Source: a virus. Taken from it: a stretch of DNA of 64,000 nucleotides. Shown here one piece after another: positions 46,210-64,000 of the stretch (position 1 is the stretch's first letter; the number at the start of each line of letters is the position of its first letter). Location of the stretch: positions 62,001 to 126,000 of IMG/VR virus record IMGVR_UViG_3300030117_007612. One strand, 5' to 3'. The notes under the pieces were generated by a model. The model was not told the DNA's origin and ran no database searches. It worked only from the letters and a program-made list of their open reading frames with translations. A program made the position numbers and the translations under genes.

Positions 46210-46659
46210 ATGAAACTTACAAAAGAAATACTTAGAGAGATCATTAAGGAAGAAATAGAGAATGCCCGCGATGTGTCAGAGGGCCCTATTGGCTCCGTTG
46301 CCCCTATGTCCACTACAGGCCAACGACGCCCACGTGGCACTGCTCCAAGTCGACCAGTAGAGGAGCCGGATGCTGCAGTGGGTGGGGAAACGACCATGGA
46401 AATTGGAGCTGTCGAAAACATTAAATCGAGACTGGATCAATATATCGCCCAGCCCGGAAACCAAATGAAAGGAAGATTCAACGGTTTGCTCAATTTTCTT
46501 GATGCATATTTGGCCTCTCAAGGTTTGGGCGTTAAAGGCGATTATAGAAAAGAGCGCGGTACCGATACACAACGTAGAACTAAATCAAGACAGGTTGTGC
46601 AAAGAGGCAAAGGCTCTGCTGCTGGCATTGGATTAAAAGAAGGAGAATCCGAAGAATGA
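46210..46659 (+). CDS. Small protein with N-terminal LREIIKEEI helix, 149 aa
   Basis: Three bases separate it from the previous stop, and its stop overlaps the ATG of the Cys-rich microprotein (ATGA at 46656). Residues 1-18 (MKLTKEILREIIKEEIEN) carry the motif found in several neighbours. A Pro/Arg/Gly-rich linker follows (about 25-65), then a helical domain (EIGAVENIKSRLDQYI... NGLLNFLDAYLASQGL) and a basic tail ending EGESEE. It may be a packaged or scaffold-type head protein whose N-terminal helix targets the prohead; this is inferred from the shared motif. Confidence 0.68.
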   Translation: MKLTKEILREIIKEEIENARDVSEGPIGSVAPMSTTGQRRPRGTAPSRPVEEPDAAVGGETTMEIGAVENIKSRLDQYIAQPGNQMKGRFNGLLNFLDAYLASQGLGVKGDYRKERGTDTQRRTKSRQVVQRGKGSAAGIGLKEGESEE

Positions 46660-46754
46660 AAAACGTACTACACAGATTAGCAAACTTATTTAATAGCGAA
46701 CACTGCTGCTGCTGCTGCGGCTGCTGTAGTTGCGCCGGAGCATGTTGCAAATGA
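46656..46754 (+). CDS. Cysteine-cluster microprotein, 32 aa
   Basis: The ATG at 46656 lies in an ATGA overlap with the previous gene, and AGGAG (46641-46645) precedes it by 10 bases. The stop at 46752-46754 overlaps the next ATG (46751). The product begins MKNVLHRLANLFNSEH, an amphipathic helix-like segment, and then reads CCCCCGCCSCAGACCK: ten Cys in the last 16 residues. The density is that of metallothionein-like metal binders or disulfide-rich peptides. Part of the coding DNA is a CTG/TGC trinucleotide run (46703-46728), which could arise by slippage. Both overlaps and the ribosome binding site support a real gene, but it was not confirmed by homology. Confidence 0.7.
   Translation: MKNVLHRLANLFNSEHCCCCCGCCSCAGACCK
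46737..46740 (+). promoter_or_regulatory. Ribosome binding site deciding the 46751 start
   Basis: GGAG lies 10 bases before ATG 46751, inside the Cys-cluster coding sequence. It favours that ATG over the in-frame TTG at 46730. Confidence 0.5.
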
Positions 46755-46981
46755 AAATCACAAAAGAACAATTGCGTAAGATTATTATGGAGGAGATATC
46801 CTCTGAAGGTGTTGTTGACATGGGCGGCGAGCCAGTTGTCACTGGCCCAGAAGGTGATGCATCCGGAGAGGCCCAAGCCGGCGCTCGCCTTAAAGATGTT
46901 ATTTTATATCTCGAAGGTAATGAAAGAGACGACTTGGCCGAACCACTTCGCAAGATTCAAGAAATGCTAGAGATGCTATAA
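46751..46981 (+). CDS. Small protein with N-terminal LRKIIMEEI helix, 76 aa
   Basis: ATG 46751 overlaps the stop of the Cys-cluster gene and is preferred to TTG 46730 because of GGAG at 46737-46740 and because MKITKEQLRKIIMEEI then begins the protein like its neighbours. A Gly-rich middle (DMGGEPVVTGPEGDASGEAQAG) links it to a helical C-terminal segment (ARLKDVILYLEGNERDDLAEPLRKIQEMLEML). Both segments look helical. No enzyme motif is present. It is a candidate member of the head-associated small-protein family. Confidence 0.7.
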   Translation: MKITKEQLRKIIMEEISSEGVVDMGGEPVVTGPEGDASGEAQAGARLKDVILYLEGNERDDLAEPLRKIQEMLEML

Positions 46982-47009
46982 TTATCGGCAGCAGGATAGG
47001 AGACTCACA

Positions 47010-47438
47010 ATGAAGATTACTGAATCGGAAATCATAAAATATATTAAAGAAGAGATGGAGTCTGATTCGGCTTTAGCTGATGCAATTGTAAAACTGTCCA
47101 ATAAGATAGACAACCTAGACGTGAGCATTGACTATCTGGCATCGGCTCTTACTGGCGAAGATGTTTTAGATATTGGCCTCGCGCAAAAAGCTTTTGGCAG
47201 ATTCAGAGCCGCCCCAACTGTAAGTGTTGGCCGTTCTGACATGTCAGAGGGCCTCGTTACAGAAGATGTCTACGACGAGGCGAAGCAAATTGCTAAAGAT
47301 CCCAAACAGATAGATCATCTCTTCCAGCTTCTACAGGCCGTCGTTAGCGTAGCTGCTGATATGAATATGATGGGTATGCGGCTAATGAAATTAGGAGATC
47401 TTCACAAACATGCGACAGAAAAATTCAAAAACAATTAG
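47010..47438 (+). CDS. Small protein with N-terminal IIKYIKEEM helix, 142 aa
   Basis: AGGAG lies 11 bases before the ATG. Residues 1-16 (MKITESEIIKYIKEEM) carry the shared motif. The remainder is mostly helical (residues 20-45 and 85-135), with a short Gly/Pro-rich stretch. No homologue is recognised. The gene overlaps the next by 29 bases. Its position just upstream of the large terminase makes a small-terminase-like role conceivable, but no helix-turn-helix DNA-binding motif is obvious. Confidence 0.65.
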   Translation: MKITESEIIKYIKEEMESDSALADAIVKLSNKIDNLDVSIDYLASALTGEDVLDIGLAQKAFGRFRAAPTVSVGRSDMSEGLVTEDVYDEAKQIAKDPKQIDHLFQLLQAVVSVAADMNMMGMRLMKLGDLHKHATEKFKNN

Positions 47439-47685
47439 TAAGTTACAACTTAGGCAGATTGTCAAAGAAGAACTTAGGGCCGTTTTGAACGAAGGGCATT
47501 ATCATGACATGGGCGGCGAAGACGAAATGTACGATGCTTTGGATCCACATGGCATTGCAAAGATGTCAGATGCACAATTAGTAGATGCTGCCTACCGTGA
47601 TGGAATTGAAGAAATTCTAGTTTTAGACAACGAAGGCGATCTTGTAAATCGTGAAGAAGTCATAATGGCACTGAAAAATGTATGA
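47410..47685 (+). CDS. Small protein with N-terminal LRQIVKEEL helix, 91 aa
   Basis: The ATG at 47410 lies 29 bases inside the previous gene; no other start is available that keeps the motif. Residues 8-24 (TISKLQLRQIVKEELRA) carry the shared helix and end in VLNE-G, which fits the L-x-E/G cleavage rule of T4-type prohead proteases. The C-terminal 60 residues are acidic (GGEDEMYDALD..., ILVLDNEGDLVNREEV). The stop overlaps the terminase ATG. Its function is unknown. A small-terminase role is possible by position only. Confidence 0.65.
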   Translation: MRQKNSKTISKLQLRQIVKEELRAVLNEGHYHDMGGEDEMYDALDPHGIAKMSDAQLVDAAYRDGIEEILVLDNEGDLVNREEVIMALKNV

Positions 47686-49265
47686 GCTTTCAATTAACCA
47701 AAAAAGATATGATGAAAGAGATCCTAAAGTGCGGCAAGGATCCGACATACTTTCTTAATACATATGCAAGAATTTCACACCCCCTGCACGGCACTATACC
47801 TTTCAGAACATACGATTTTCAACAAGAATTACTAGACGATTTTAATGATTATCGTTTTAATGTGATATTAAAAGCCCGCCAGTTAGGTATTTCGACCATA
47901 ACTGCGGGCTATGTTGTTTGGCTGATGTTGTTTCATCGCGATAAAAACGTTTTGGTTATGGCAACCAAGTTTGGTACCGCCGCAAACCTCGTTAAAAAAG
48001 TCAAAAGCATAATGAAAAACCTGCCTGACTTTATAAAAATTGCAGAAATTTCTGTTGACAACCGTACATCATTCGAATTATCAAATGGATCTTTTATTAA
48101 AGCTTCCTCAACTTCTGGTGATGCTGGTCGTTCTGAATCACTCTCCCTGCTTGTGCTTGATGAGGCTGCTCACATTGAGGGACTAGAAGAGTTGTGGACC
48201 GGTCTATATCCCACGCTGTCAACGGGTGGTAGGTGTATTGCACTATCAACCCCAAATGGTGTTGGAAATTGGTTTCACAAAACATACATGGAAGCTGACT
48301 CTGGGGCAAACAATTTTCACCCCACGAACTTACCATGGGATGTGCATCCAGATCGCGATCAGCAATGGTTTGAAAAAGAGACAGCAAATATGTCTAGACG
48401 ACAAATTGCTCAAGAGCTAGAGTGTAATTTTAATACTTCTGGCGAAACTGTAATTGATCCGGAAGATTTGGAAAAGCTAGCAAAAAACGTGAGAGAGCCA
48501 AAATACAAAACAGCATTTGATAGAAATTTTTGGATTTGGGAAGAGCACGATCCATCGTGCAATTATCTCATGGTTGCTGATGTTGCAAGAGGCGATGGGA
48601 CCGACTATTCTGTATTTCACATTATCAAGCTTGAAACTTTAGAGATCATAGGGGAATACCAAGGGAAACCCACACCAGACTTATTTGGCAATATGATTAA
48701 TCAAATAGGTAGAGAGTTTGGAGATTGTTTGGTTGTTGTTGAAAACAACAGTATCGGATACGCTGTATTGGAAAAATTGGTTGAGTTTGGATATCCGAAT
48801 GTTTACTATTCAGTTAAGTCAACACATGAATATATCGATCAATATCAAGCCGAAAGCCAAACAAATGCGGTGATGGGCTTTTCAACTACTTCAAAGACGC
48901 GTCCTTTAATAGTTGCCAAACTTGAAGAATTCATAAGAAATGAACTAATTACTGTGAATTCTGGTCGTTTAATAAACGAAATGAGGACTTTTATTTGGCA
49001 GTACGGAAAACCACAGGCCATGAGAGGGTACAACGATGACTTGGTTATGTCGTTGGCAATTGCATGTTGGATTAGGGACACCGCACTCCAAGTTAACCAA
49101 AGAAGCATGGATTATCAAAGGGCTTTTTTAAGCTCTATAGTCTACACAAAAACGAGTTTTGATACTACAATTAAGGGAATGGACAAAAACAAAAGCACAA
49201 AAATGACCGATAGAATAGCTGAACAAAAAGAAAGCTATGATCATTTAATGTGGCTAATAAAGTGA
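47682..49265 (+). CDS. 17: Large terminase subunit, gp17-like
   Basis: 527 aa, somewhat shorter than T4 gp17 (610). ATPase motifs: a Walker A-like KARQLGIST (64-72), Walker B LLVLDEAAHI (156-165) with the catalytic Glu at 161, and the STP coupling motif at 189-191. The nuclease domain has D300 in VADVARGDGTDYS, E354 in VVVENNS, and a C-terminal Asp pair in GYNDDLVM (about 454-461). The protein powers DNA translocation into the prohead and cuts concatemers. The start overlaps the previous stop. The portal gene follows immediately. No small subunit was recognised with confidence. Confidence 0.96.
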   Translation: MSFQLTKKDMMKEILKCGKDPTYFLNTYARISHPLHGTIPFRTYDFQQELLDDFNDYRFNVILKARQLGISTITAGYVVWLMLFHRDKNVLVMATKFGTAANLVKKVKSIMKNLPDFIKIAEISVDNRTSFELSNGSFIKASSTSGDAGRSESLSLLVLDEAAHIEGLEELWTGLYPTLSTGGRCIALSTPNGVGNWFHKTYMEADSGANNFHPTNLPWDVHPDRDQQWFEKETANMSRRQIAQELECNFNTSGETVIDPEDLEKLAKNVREPKYKTAFDRNFWIWEEHDPSCNYLMVADVARGDGTDYSVFHIIKLETLEIIGEYQGKPTPDLFGNMINQIGREFGDCLVVVENNSIGYAVLEKLVEFGYPNVYYSVKSTHEYIDQYQAESQTNAVMGFSTTSKTRPLIVAKLEEFIRNELITVNSGRLINEMRTFIWQYGKPQAMRGYNDDLVMSLAIACWIRDTALQVNQRSMDYQRAFLSSIVYTKTSFDTTIKGMDKNKSTKMTDRIAEQKESYDHLMWLIK

Positions 49266-56267: not shown

Positions 56268-56735
56268 ATGAAAATAAGCAGACACCGCCTCATGCAGATT
56301 ATTCAAGAAGAGTATGATATAATGTTGCGTTCTGAAAAAAAAGAACGACTTGACGAAAGTGTTGTTTTAGAAGCTTCCATGTCTCAAAGCGAGGTGGCTC
56401 TCGCTTCAATTGAATCGGCGATTAACGGCACCTTGCACAATTTGTTAAAAGACTTTGTAGCTGAAACGGAAATTAAAAGCATTGTCGATAGTGCAGCTGA
56501 CGCCGTTGCAGGCAGGATTGGCATTGAGCTAGAAAGCATATATAATGAAAAGCAGGCACCTCTTGAGGAGGTGGTGATGACTCAAGAGCCAATGGATATT
56601 CTAGAAGAATTAAGAAGCTTGACAAATAAGTTATCATCGATATCCGGCAACGCACAGCCGTTTGAAAATATAGCATCGGATATGATAATACAGATTAATG
56701 ATTTAGAGGAAATTTTAACAACGGAGAAGGAATGA
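56268..56735 (+). CDS. Small protein with N-terminal LMQIIQEEY helix, 155 aa
   Basis: ATG 56268 is preferred to 56223 because of the GGGAGA at 56255-56260 and because the protein then begins MKISRHRLMQIIQEEY, like its relatives; the longer start would run into the tubulin-like gene. Residues 35-100 look helical, with a Ser/Ala-rich segment, and a mildly acidic C-terminal helix (ILEELRSLTNKLSS) follows. The stop overlaps the next ATG (ATGA). Its role is unknown, probably a head-associated protein. Confidence 0.68.
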   Translation: MKISRHRLMQIIQEEYDIMLRSEKKERLDESVVLEASMSQSEVALASIESAINGTLHNLLKDFVAETEIKSIVDSAADAVAGRIGIELESIYNEKQAPLEEVVMTQEPMDILEELRSLTNKLSSISGNAQPFENIASDMIIQINDLEEILTTEKE

Positions 56736-57115: not shown

Positions 57116-57721
57116 ATGGGTAAGGTACTTTTACGAGAATTTTATGAATTATGTGAAGGGGGCGTCTGTCAGGATCTTTTAACCGAGGAAGAGAAGAGGT
57201 TTGTGGCCGGCGGCGGTATGATTTTGTCTGGAATTATGCAAAAATCAGACACTGTTAATGGAAATGGAAGAATTTATCCACACAAAGTTCTTGTTCGTGA
57301 GGTTGAAAACTACTCTAAGCTTGTAAAAGAGCGACGAGCGCTCGGAGAATTAGACCACCCAGACGACTCAGTGATCAATCTTAAGAATGCATCACACCTT
57401 TGCACCAGCATATGGTGGGAGGGGCAAGATGTCATGGGCAAGGTTAGAATTTTGGACACACCATCTGGAAAAGTACTGCAAGAGCTTGTAAAATCAGGTG
57501 TTAGCCTCGGAATTTCTTCAAGAGGAATGGGTTCTGTTAAAGAAAGCCAAAATGGCACAATTGTTGAAGATGATTTTCAGTTAATTTGTTTTGATTTTGT
57601 ATCAGAACCCTCAACACCCGGCGCCTACATGATGAAAGAGTCTAAAAGCTTAAAAGAATCAAACATCTTCACAAAAGCAGATAAAATCAACAGATTAATC
57701 AACGAGGCTCTAGATGAATAA
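57116..57721 (+). CDS. 21: Prohead core protease, gp21-like
   Basis: 201 aa from the well-supported ATG 57116, close to T4 gp21 (212 aa). Catalytic features of this U9/assemblin-type protease are visible: GELDHPDD with the catalytic His at residue 81, and GISSRGMG with the Ser at about 134-135. The NGNGRIYP segment (about 48-55) is also typical. It would cleave scaffold and head proteins inside the prohead after Glu in L/I-x-E sites. The expected scaffold-like genes surround it. It overlaps the next gene by 8 bases. The assignment is confident. Confidence 0.93.
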   Translation: MGKVLLREFYELCEGGVCQDLLTEEEKRFVAGGGMILSGIMQKSDTVNGNGRIYPHKVLVREVENYSKLVKERRALGELDHPDDSVINLKNASHLCTSIWWEGQDVMGKVRILDTPSGKVLQELVKSGVSLGISSRGMGSVKESQNGTIVEDDFQLICFDFVSEPSTPGAYMMKESKSLKESNIFTKADKINRLINEALDE

Positions 57722-60699: not shown

Positions 60700-63600
60700 T
60701 GGCCAAAATAGTAATAACCTCAGCAGGTATATCCGGTTCAGCAGGATCGGTAGCCATTACAGGCTCATTTGTTGTTACCGGATCCGAAGGCGAAATTACA
60801 GTTTCCGGAAGCGGAACCGAGCTTAGTGGCGCCCATGGATCCTCGACCACCACATCGGGCTCATCTACATTCTACGACGCCGCCGGCAGCAGCACGTCAA
60901 CCTCTGCGACTGGCTCAGTATCTACCGGCTCAGCAGGCTCCGCAACGCACGGCTCTGGTTCCTCAACATACACCGATGCTGATGGCACACACTCAACTTC
61001 TGCAACTGGTTCATACACTACGGGTTCCGGCGGATCAACATCGACAACATCAGGCTCTACATCCCACACAAGTGCTGATGGTAGCACCACTTCGACATCT
61101 GCGACTGGTTCTTATATTAGTGGCTCCGGAGGCGGAGCCGGAACTGGCTCTGGCGGCTCAGCAACCCACAGTTCGGGTTCATCAATTTACACAAGCGCTG
61201 ACGGTAGCACACACTCAACTTCTGCAACTGGCTCATTAACCACAGGCTCAGGAGGTTCCACCGAAACAACATCAGGATCTACATCGTATACAGACGCTGG
61301 TGGAAGCACCACTACTGTTTCTGCAACTGGTTCATATACCACAGGTTCTGGAGGTTCCACCGAAACAACAACGGGATCATCTACATACACAGGCGCTGAT
61401 GGTGGCACAGCCATAGTCTCTTCAGTTGGATACGTAGCTAGTGGTTCCGGTGGAGAGTCATCTACAACATCTGGCTCAACCAGCTACACAGACGCTGGTG
61501 GAAGCAGTACTTCGACATCTGCGACCGGCTCATCTATGACTGGTTCGGGCGGATCTGCAACCCATGGATCGGGTTCATCCACATATACAGACGCCGGCGG
61601 ATGTACTGGGTCGATGTCCGCAACTGGTTCATACACTACGGGTTCCGGCGGATCAACATCGACAACATCAGGCTCGACCACACACACAGACGCTGGTGGA
61701 AGCAGTACTTCGACATCTGCGACCGGCTCATCTATGACTGGTTCGGGCGGATCTGCAACCCATGGATCGGGTTCATCCACATATACAGACGCCGGCGGAA
61801 GTACCACTTCGACATCTGCGACTGGCTCTTATATGAGCGGGTCGACCCCGGGAACCACTACCACAACGCCGGGCGGGACTACATACGAAGACACAGACAG
61901 CACAACTATGCACTCAACCAGTGGTTCGCACTATAGTGGCTCAACGCCGGAAAGCGGCTCTGCCGGCAGCACAACGATTACAGATGGCACAGTTGAGGTA
62001 ACTGGATCCGTCACAATTTCTGGCTCAAGCCCCGCCTTAACAATTATGGCCGGCGAACTAATAGTTAGTGGCTCATCGATACTTGGCTCAACCATCGACC
62101 ACACAACCACTATAGGCAGCCACCTTACAGCATCCTATGGATTGGTTGCGCCAACACACGGAATTAGCGGAGCATATGTTACAGCCTATGATGGTCGTTT
62201 CCCGGGTCACGTGTCATCATCTCTTTATAAAGGCTCGATGGTCTCTGCTAGCTTGTTAGTGACAGGTGGAGAAGTTAAAGCACACCGCGGTACATTCGGC
62301 TTGATGGTTACTGAGTTTCTTACGATGTCAAAGGGCGCCCTTGTTGAGGATGATGACAAAGTCCACTTTGGCACAGATCAAGAATCACACATCAGGTACG
62401 ATGAGGCCGGCCAAGATTTCCTAACAATTTCAGGCTCAGATGCAGGTGGCCTTGTTCTAAGCGGTTCTAGCTTGGTAATCGACACTGACACCGTGGAAAG
62501 CGGTTCCCGCGCCGGCGGCGGAAGCTACTTGGCTATGACAACAACTGGTAAAATTGTGTTGTCGACTCCAGATGGCGGCGGCGGCGGTTCCGCTAGAAGC
62601 GTTTCGGGTGATGACGACGATGGCGTTATAACTTGGAAAACATCTGATAACACTTTTACTGTTGAGGGCAATCTTACTTTTGACGGTAACACACTTACCG
62701 TCGGCGGTCTGGGCGTTGTAACCGGTAGTCAGTTAATGGCGTATGGCATAACCGGATCGCTAGCGACAATTCAAGAGATTACTGGTGGCTGGGCTGATAT
62801 GCATAAGTTTGCCGGCGACAAGGTCGAAGTTGGCACTCACGTTTCATCTTCGCTTCTGTATGGTACAACATTGTCTGCGTCAACTCTTGTAAGTGGCGGT
62901 TTGCATATGGGCCATACCGGCAAATTTGATATTCTGTCAGCATCGACGGTGTATGCTCACGCCTTCTCCCCATCGACCGTATCAGCATCTACAGAAATAA
63001 CCGGCGGCGCCGTCTCGGCATTTGGAATTACTGGAACACTCGGAACATTCAGTGGCGTCGTCAGTGCATCTTCTTACGAAGGTTTTGCTGTGCGAACCAC
63101 ACACGGAGAACACGCTGGTACAGTCTCTGCATCAGTATTCATAGGATCGAATGTATCAGCCTCAACAGAAATCACCGGTGGTTGGCACAGAGGACACACT
63201 GGCAAATTTGATATTCTGTCAGCATCGACGATACATGCTCATGTCTTCTCTCCATCGACTATCTCCGCCTCGCTATATTTAACTGGTGGTCATGTTTATG
63301 CATACGGTATAACCGGCTCAAAAGCGACAATTACAAGCATCAGTGCTACGGAAGTCACATCATCTGTATTGTTGGGATATTCGCATACTGGCGACGAATT
63401 AATTGCACACAGCCATGTATCAGCGGCTCTATTCTTAACCGGTGGGCACGTCTATGCTTACGGCGTTACCGCTTCATTGGGAACATTCAGCGGCGTCGTC
63501 AGTGCGTCTTCTTATGAGGGTTTTGCCGTACGAACTACTCATGGCGAACATGCTGGCACAGTTTCTGCATCAGTATTCATAGGATCGAATGTATCAGCTT

Positions 63601-64000
63601 CTACGGAAATCACCGGTGGTTGGCATAGGGGACACACCGGCAAATTTGACATTCTGTCAGCATCGACGGTGCATGCTCACGTCTTCTCCCCATCGACCGT
63701 ATCAGCATCTATAGAAATAACTGGTGGCGCAGTCTCCGCTTACGGAATTACTGGTACGCTGGGCACATTCAGTGGCGTTGTCAGTGCATCTTCTTATGAA
63801 GGTTTTGCTGTACGAACCACACACGGAGAACATGCCGGCACAGTCTCCGCATCAGTATTCATAGGATCGAACGTGTCAGCTTCTACGGAAATCACCGGTG
63901 GTTGGCATAGAGGATTCAAATTTGAAGGACCCAAGGGTGAATTTGCAACACATGTTTCGTCTTCACTGTTGTTTGGTACAACATTGTCTGCCTCCACTAT
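60699..64000 (+). CDS. Large repeat-rich surface/fibre-type protein, 3' end outside the window
   Basis: The frame starts at ATG 60699 (TAATG overlap) and remains open to the last base, at least 1100 residues. Residues about 60-385 consist of roughly 33-aa Ser/Thr/Gly-rich repeats of the type TSATGSYTTGSGGSTSTTSG. A less repetitive stretch follows (FTVEGNLTFDGN...). From about residue 690 come repeats based on VSAS, ITGG and FDILSAS blocks. Such Ser/Thr/Gly repeats are usual for long trimeric fibres and adhesins. No signal peptide or enzyme was seen. Hence a probable tail fibre; its tip is not visible. Confidence 0.82.
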   Translation, partial: MAKIVITSAGISGSAGSVAITGSFVVTGSEGEITVSGSGTELSGAHGSSTTTSGSSTFYDAAGSSTSTSATGSVSTGSAGSATHGSGSSTYTDADGTHSTSATGSYTTGSGGSTSTTSGSTSHTSADGSTTSTSATGSYISGSGGGAGTGSGGSATHSSGSSIYTSADGSTHSTSATGSLTTGSGGSTETTSGSTSYTDAGGSTTTVSATGSYTTGSGGSTETTTGSSTYTGADGGTAIVSSVGYVASGSGGESSTTSGSTSYTDAGGSSTSTSATGSSMTGSGGSATHGSGSSTYTDAGGCTGSMSATGSYTTGSGGSTSTTSGSTTHTDAGGSSTSTSATGSSMTGSGGSATHGSGSSTYTDAGGSTTSTSATGSYMSGSTPGTTTTTPGGTTYEDTDSTTMHSTSGSHYSGSTPESGSAGSTTITDGTVEVTGSVTISGSSPALTIMAGELIVSGSSILGSTIDHTTTIGSHLTASYGLVAPTHGISGAYVTAYDGRFPGHVSSSLYKGSMVSASLLVTGGEVKAHRGTFGLMVTEFLTMSKGALVEDDDKVHFGTDQESHIRYDEAGQDFLTISGSDAGGLVLSGSSLVIDTDTVESGSRAGGGSYLAMTTTGKIVLSTPDGGGGGSARSVSGDDDDGVITWKTSDNTFTVEGNLTFDGNTLTVGGLGVVTGSQLMAYGITGSLATIQEITGGWADMHKFAGDKVEVGTHVSSSLLYGTTLSASTLVSGGLHMGHTGKFDILSASTVYAHAFSPSTVSASTEITGGAVSAFGITGTLGTFSGVVSASSYEGFAVRTTHGEHAGTVSASVFIGSNVSASTEITGGWHRGHTGKFDILSASTIHAHVFSPSTISASLYLTGGHVYAYGITGSKATITSISATEVTSSVLLGYSHTGDELIAHSHVSAALFLTGGHVYAYGVTASLGTFSGVVSASSYEGFAVRTTHGEHAGTVSASVFIGSNVSASTEITGGWHRGHTGKFDILSASTVHAHVFSPSTVSASIEITGGAVSAYGITGTLGTFSGVVSASSYEGFAVRTTHGEHAGTVSASVFIGSNVSASTEITGGWHRGFKFEGPKGEFATHVSSSLLFGTTLSAST
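60880..61850 (+). repeat. Tandem 99-base (33-aa) Ser/Thr/Gly repeats
   Basis: The core (TCTGCGACTGG or near) recurs about every 96-100 bases from about 60904 to 61815, with one interval near 120 bases; ten units are visible. Confidence 0.8.
61486..61799 (+). repeat. Exact repeat of about 115 bases, spaced 198 bases
   Basis: The stretch 61486-61601 is repeated at 61684-61799 without mismatch that I can find. It encodes two consecutive 33-aa units, so a two-unit block was duplicated recently. Confidence 0.8.
63044..63960 (+). repeat. Long near-identical fibre repeats (three copies)
   Basis: A block beginning ACATTCAG(T/C)GGCGT(C/T)GTCAGTGC starts near 63044, 63482 and 63764. It continues for 170 bases or more through the FAVRTTHGEHAGTV and SASVFIGSNVSAS segments, then ITGGWHRG, with only scattered synonymous changes. 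The copies are in frame. Confidence 0.8.

Follow-up and report, generated by a model that had tools for sequence, protein, structure and literature searches.

The open reading frame at positions 46656–46754 of the window, by which we mean the whole 64,000-nucleotide stretch of a 203-kb virus record analysed here, is a genuine phage gene under protein-level selection. Its 32-aa product belongs to a family that, judged against Pfam, NCBIfam, PHROGs, and PDB, is previously uncatalogued, and scans of 2.9 million viral contigs returned 73 distinct complete proteins related to it. The initial annotation had suggested metal binding or redox packing; a functional microprotein that probably binds metal is a reading well supported by the conserved family, the constancy of its ten cysteines, and the purifying selection acting on it.

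A ten-cysteine microgene coupled to both neighbours

The features on which the argument depends are these, in window coordinates:

46210–46659, + strand: upstream coupled gene, 149 aa, with the shared N-terminal helix MKLTKEILREIIKEE
46640–46645, + strand: Shine-Dalgarno AAGGAG, within the upstream gene and 10 nt before the ATG (from the sequence)
46655–46662, + strand: left copy of the 8-bp direct repeat AATGAAAA bounding the microgene (comparison with the empty site of contig L002)
46656–46754, + strand: ten-cysteine microprotein gene, 32 aa plus stop (translation; 73 distinct relatives; core pN/pS 0.127)
46656–46700, + strand: predicted N-terminal amphipathic helix region MKNVLHRLANLFNSE, with conserved H6 (conservation; AlphaFold2)
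46701–46751, + strand: HCCCCCGCCSCAGACCK cluster of ten Cys and H16, a putative metal-thiolate site (exactly ten Cys in 67/73 members despite differing tail spacing)
46750–46757, + strand: right copy of the direct repeat AATGAAAA (same comparison)
46751–46981, + strand: downstream coupled gene, 76 aa, with the shared N-terminal helix MKITKEQLRKIIMEE
47682–49265, + strand: terminase large subunit, the anchor for finding relatives (PHROG terminase matches; relatives)
57116–57721, + strand: gp21-type prohead protease, Peptidase_S77 (PF03420, E = 5e-34 at C1:119185-119661, which is window 57184–57660)

The frame translates as MKNVLHRLANLFNSEHCCCCCGCCSCAGACCK, and ten Cys do lie in its last 16 residues, as had been noted; at a background of 1% Cys, at least ten in 32 residues would occur by chance with p ~5e-13, a composition well beyond normal. 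Both the Shine-Dalgarno site and the two-sided coupling claimed for the gene were found, the latter as a 4-bp ATGA overlap at each end. Upstream, the stop TGA of the preceding gene (46657–46659) overlaps the microgene ATG (46656–46658), and downstream the microgene's own TGA (46752–46754) overlaps the next ATG (46751–46753). AlphaFold2, which cannot model metals, places a helix at residues 2–11 with low confidence (pLDDT 67.6, pTM 0.25), and a fold search was rejected because this model is too weak.

A conserved family in large phages

Relatives were recovered by searching the 2.9 million viral contigs for FNxxHCCCC with a degenerate-DNA pattern and, exhaustively, for HCCCCCGCC. The longer string is nearly diagnostic for these phages; 79 of its 81 sites lie in open reading frames with an LH[KR]L-type helix just before it, the other two being a chance match and a degenerate second copy. 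Members are 31–49 aa long, nearly all with ten Cys and two His, and follow the consensus MKxxLH[KR]LxNLFNxxH-CCCCC-G-CC-x-C before a variable tail, H6, L8, N10, and F12 of the helix being nearly invariant; the relative in L231, for example, reads MKKVLHKLANLFNSDHCCCCCGCCSCDNCSGACK. The same open reading frame was thus found repeatedly in other phages, its C5-G-C2 core almost unchanged. The family is carried by about 75 contigs, which come from large phages of a T4-like head lineage and are for the most part unrelated to one another; the records in question are mostly fragments. Two tandem copies of the microgene occur in L428 (G041:C1 near 145074-145228), the first of them degenerate (MKKILNKKHCCCCCGCCKWPIPLRYFAHLL).

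Scanning 84,980 prokaryote genomes for FNxxHCCCC gave 75 matches with a single true member, L325, which lies on a 101,404-bp contig of a Halobacteriovorax MAG; this contig has the same length as viral contig L258 and is also recorded as viral. No match to the family was found in Pfam, NCBIfam, PHROGs, or PDB (the last by profile search), and none in cultured phages by tblastn with the peptide, a result weakened by the BLAST low-complexity filter. The string HCCCC is absent from the whole records of Flavobacterium phage immuto, Microcystis phage Mel-JY01, and a 484-kb uncultured phage, and we found no Cys-rich phage microprotein family in the literature searched.

Selection on the protein and constancy of the cysteine count

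Across the family, the core has a pN/pS of 0.127, the helix one of 0.237, and the Cys region one of 0.047, low values that are due in part to the search pattern having fixed some positions. The LH[KR]L, fifth Cys, and G-C2 positions, which FNxxHCCCC leaves free, are likewise highly conserved. The comparison of synonymous and nonsynonymous change called for in the initial annotation therefore gives purifying selection, and the free variation of the CTG-type repeat that it had entertained was not seen, the C5-G-C2 segment being almost invariant. Both TGC and TGT are used at every Cys position, so it is not the DNA repeat that is conserved. A Shine-Dalgarno match of at least 4 bases precedes 59 of 66 relatives, against about 25% of random ATGs.

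The number of cysteines is nearly constant. Exactly ten Cys are present in 67 of the 73 distinct proteins, and the His count is exactly two in 68. If tail columns are permuted among members, ten Cys are expected in 34% on average and 52% at most, a shuffle that does not remove common descent; with two tail layouts accounting for 58/73 members, the constancy is partly due to common descent of these two main tail types. Tail Cys positions nonetheless differ between members, several rarer layouts return to ten Cys, and the divergent L527 (HCCCCCATCGCTNCACC) also reaches ten through a different spacing. In L222 a His replaces the conserved Cys at +10, and in L236 H6 is lost and 11 Cys are present, as would be expected of interchangeable metal ligands. 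A metal cluster would require this combination of constant number, shifting positions, and Cys/His exchange.

Four distinct members (L219, L239, L247, and L252) end in an AT-hook-like extension, RRRGRPRK, which the window copy lacks and for which the Pfam AT_hook match reaches only E = 0.18. These tails suggest that in some phages the putative cluster can be tethered to DNA.

Sporadic presence and genomic setting

The near-identical contig L001 carries the microgene with the single change R7K. In the sister contig L002, with a terminase 96% identical and DNA about 82% identical, the two neighbouring genes are joined directly as GAA-TAATG-AAA with no trace of it. In the window the microgene's own start and the start of the next gene form the 8-bp direct repeat, and this bounding repeat together with the clean empty site in L002 indicates that the microgene was gained or lost as a unit. 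Among the 24 records of the close terminase clade, which include that of L001, only L001's has the microgene, and in a second clade it is present in 3 of 14 long contigs, one of them the genome that supplied the query, which shows the gene to be dispensable. A related genome without the frame had been named in advance as a refutation, and L002 is such a genome; since dozens of other phages carry family members, however, the gene is accessory rather than spurious. A separate insertion or deletion of about 320 bp between two tagged genes (L001:4976-5302 versus window 46980–46983) is another sign of gene-cassette turnover at the locus.

The window's genome has a T4-type head, with a terminase and a portal matching PHROG families and a Peptidase_S77 prohead protease, and by terminase its closest annotated relatives are Flavobacterium phage immuto and Microcystis phage Mel-JY01 (43–47% identity). 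A terminase of the window's clade (47–70% identity) is encoded by 26 of 40 family-bearing records; in roughly half of these the microgene lies 1–14 kb upstream of the terminase, and in the others it is elsewhere. Its location on the terminase strand in 26/26 genomes is probably uninformative because nearly all window genes run one way. Immediate neighbours across genomes include a primase, an M50 protease, IscU/NifU_N, thioredoxin, a PALP enzyme, DNA polymerase III, and a sheath-like protein (tail sheath). At L426:119-1429 the microgene is flanked by a thioredoxin-like gene on one side and a gene for a cysteine-synthase-like PLP enzyme on the other, with an IscU-like gene about 6 kb further on.

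Two N-terminal tags, MK[IL]TKxxLxxIIxEE and MKxLLENWRKFLxE, recur on many unrelated small proteins of these phages; in the window they begin genes within 46210–47685 and 56268–56735, and others occur at loci L426 and L432. When tagged genes are picked on roughly their first eight residues alone, 187 of 232 (81%) have an [LIV]xE that ends precisely at residue 14, whereas the figure for other genes is 5%. In T4, gp21 cuts capsid targeting sequences after [LI]xE (PMC9026906). Because the motif is fixed at residue 14, because gp21 cleaves after such a motif, and because the genome has a gp21-type protease, the shared helix is probably a lineage-wide capsid-targeting tag, borne by more than 10% of genes, and we came across no account of it in the literature searched. 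At the far end of the window (60800–64000), short near-repeated open reading frames on both strands, such as MYQPQQKSPVVGTEDT.. at 63151 and MYQLLRKSPVVGIGDT.. at 63589, suggest that this coding region is repetitive.

The microgene usually lies just ahead of tagged genes, often with an ATGA or TAATG junction: the coupled downstream gene bears one of the two tags in 37 of 55 cases, compared with 122 of 705 background genes (p = 1e-14). The earlier placement of the flanking genes in a shared-helix head module stands insofar as both carry the helix. The microprotein itself does not, and its family is not tied to the head module, given the primase, DNA polymerase III, M50 protease, tail sheath, IscU-like, and thioredoxin neighbours found elsewhere. 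None of 56 microproteins has [LIVF]xE in the first 16 residues, and with both tag profiles their N-termini score like those of ordinary genes. The notion that this N-terminus is an uncleavable variant of the tag, attractive by eye (MKLLLENWRKYLNE versus MKNLLHKLVNLFNSS), failed this profile test.

A possible metal-thiolate peptide and its alternatives

The reading we favour, and judge to be somewhat better than an even bet, is metallothionein-like: an N-terminal helix for docking, followed by a polynuclear metal-thiolate cluster, in which metal binding, docking, late expression, and role are inferred. Residues 1–15 would form a short amphipathic helix by which the peptide docks to a phage or host partner, and the C-terminal H-C5-G-C2-x-C-(x)n-C-C would wrap a polynuclear thiolate cluster of a d10 metal, Zn(II) or Cu(I), with about ten Cys and two His as ligands. 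Expression would be late, and the peptide could act as a miniature metallothionein that buffers, withholds, or delivers metal or thiol reducing power during phage development. The cassette of about 100 bp would move between phages, usually inserting just ahead of capsid-tag-like genes, and a position ahead of coupled tagged genes implies that the microprotein would be co-translated with probable head cargo. Counting against this reading are the weak AlphaFold2 model, the lack of a sequence match to metallothioneins in Pfam or PDB, a Cys spacing unusual for that class, the part played by common descent in the constant Cys count, and the sporadic presence of the gene. A bolder version, which we advance only tentatively and think rather doubtful, is that the docking helix of this horizontally moving family carries a Cys10His2 metal cluster into the developing head or onto DNA, such that phages deliberately handle metal during assembly by means of a dedicated 32-residue metal peptide.

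Two other functions are each unlikely, and about equally so. The cysteines could cross-link in the virion or form a thiol/disulfide reservoir instead of binding metal, which would suit the even number of Cys (ten) in most members, the frequent location in the late/head region beside putative head-cargo genes, and the occasional thioredoxin- and NifU-like neighbours. Five adjacent Cys are, however, poor for intramolecular disulfides, the cytoplasm is reducing, and the conserved H6 and H16 and the His-for-Cys exchange in L222 fit metal ligation better. If instead the helix binds one host protein, which the Cys cluster then blocks as a Zn knuckle, for example in takeover or counter-defence, then a sporadic, mobile, small accessory gene is typical of such proteins, and the conserved helix face would fit. 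The microgene is nevertheless often found among late/head genes (1–14 kb upstream of the terminase in about half of the 26 genomes) and not in early clusters.

Still less probable, to the point of being a long shot, is a regulatory leader that works like the polycysteine attenuators of mycobacteria: as the Cys codons are translated, Cys-tRNA or cysteine supply would be sensed and the coupled downstream gene controlled accordingly. A short Cys-run frame coupled to the next gene has the right form, and in L426 that next gene is the cysteine-synthase-like one and the previous gene is thioredoxin-like. Yet the helix pN/pS and the near invariance of H6, L8, N10, and F12 show that the helix is conserved at the amino-acid level, and so is the Gly, neither of which an attenuator would require; the microgene lies inside operons with a Shine-Dalgarno site; the window site shows neither a terminator nor an unusual RNA fold (z = 0.69); and identified neighbours outside L426 are not cysteine-metabolism genes. 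That the frame arose by chance on a CTG-repeat-rich stretch, for which the CTG-like repeat in the DNA and the absence from L002 might speak, has a negligible probability against 73 distinct family sequences, synonymous mixing of Cys codons, purifying selection, and Shine-Dalgarno sites, and is refuted by the existence of the family.

Whatever its function, the family illustrates cleanly how gene-length cut-offs can keep proteins out of view, being present in dozens of large phage contigs and in none of Pfam, NCBIfam, and PHROGs, among genes that apparently carry capsid-targeting tags. If the metal-binding reading holds, few genetically encoded polynuclear metal sites would be smaller than these peptides, and infection by large phages would seem to involve metal or thiol control.

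Comparison with known systems

Polycysteine leader ORFs (leaderless short ORFs that act as cysteine-responsive mycobacterial attenuators; Canestrari et al. 2020, cited in PMC9094748) resemble the microgene in being short frames with a Cys run in an operon, and differ from it in that the microgene has a Shine-Dalgarno site, overlaps its neighbours within an operon, lacks a terminator, and has a conserved helix outside the Cys. The T4 internal proteins with a capsid targeting sequence (PMC9026906) find their likeness in the microgene's neighbours, with [LIV]xE at a fixed position of the tag and a gp21-type protease in the genome, and not in the microprotein, which has neither tag nor cleavage motif. 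The microgene also resembles the under-annotated small phage ORFs reviewed in PMC11323111, a review from which the words cysteine, zinc, and metal are absent.

From bacterial metallothioneins the microprotein differs in being shorter and phage-borne, in its uninterrupted Cys5 run and conserved N-terminal helix, and in matching none of those known from Pfam, NCBIfam, or PDB by sequence or profile. Bacterial metallothioneins have about 55 residues or more, and metallothionein Cys are usually spaced as CxC or CxxC, five adjacent Cys not being usual. Those of the SmtA/BmtA type are Zn-buffering metal-thiolate proteins that, like the microprotein, are very small and Cys-rich with His (PMC10612145); the chemistry is likely to be the same.
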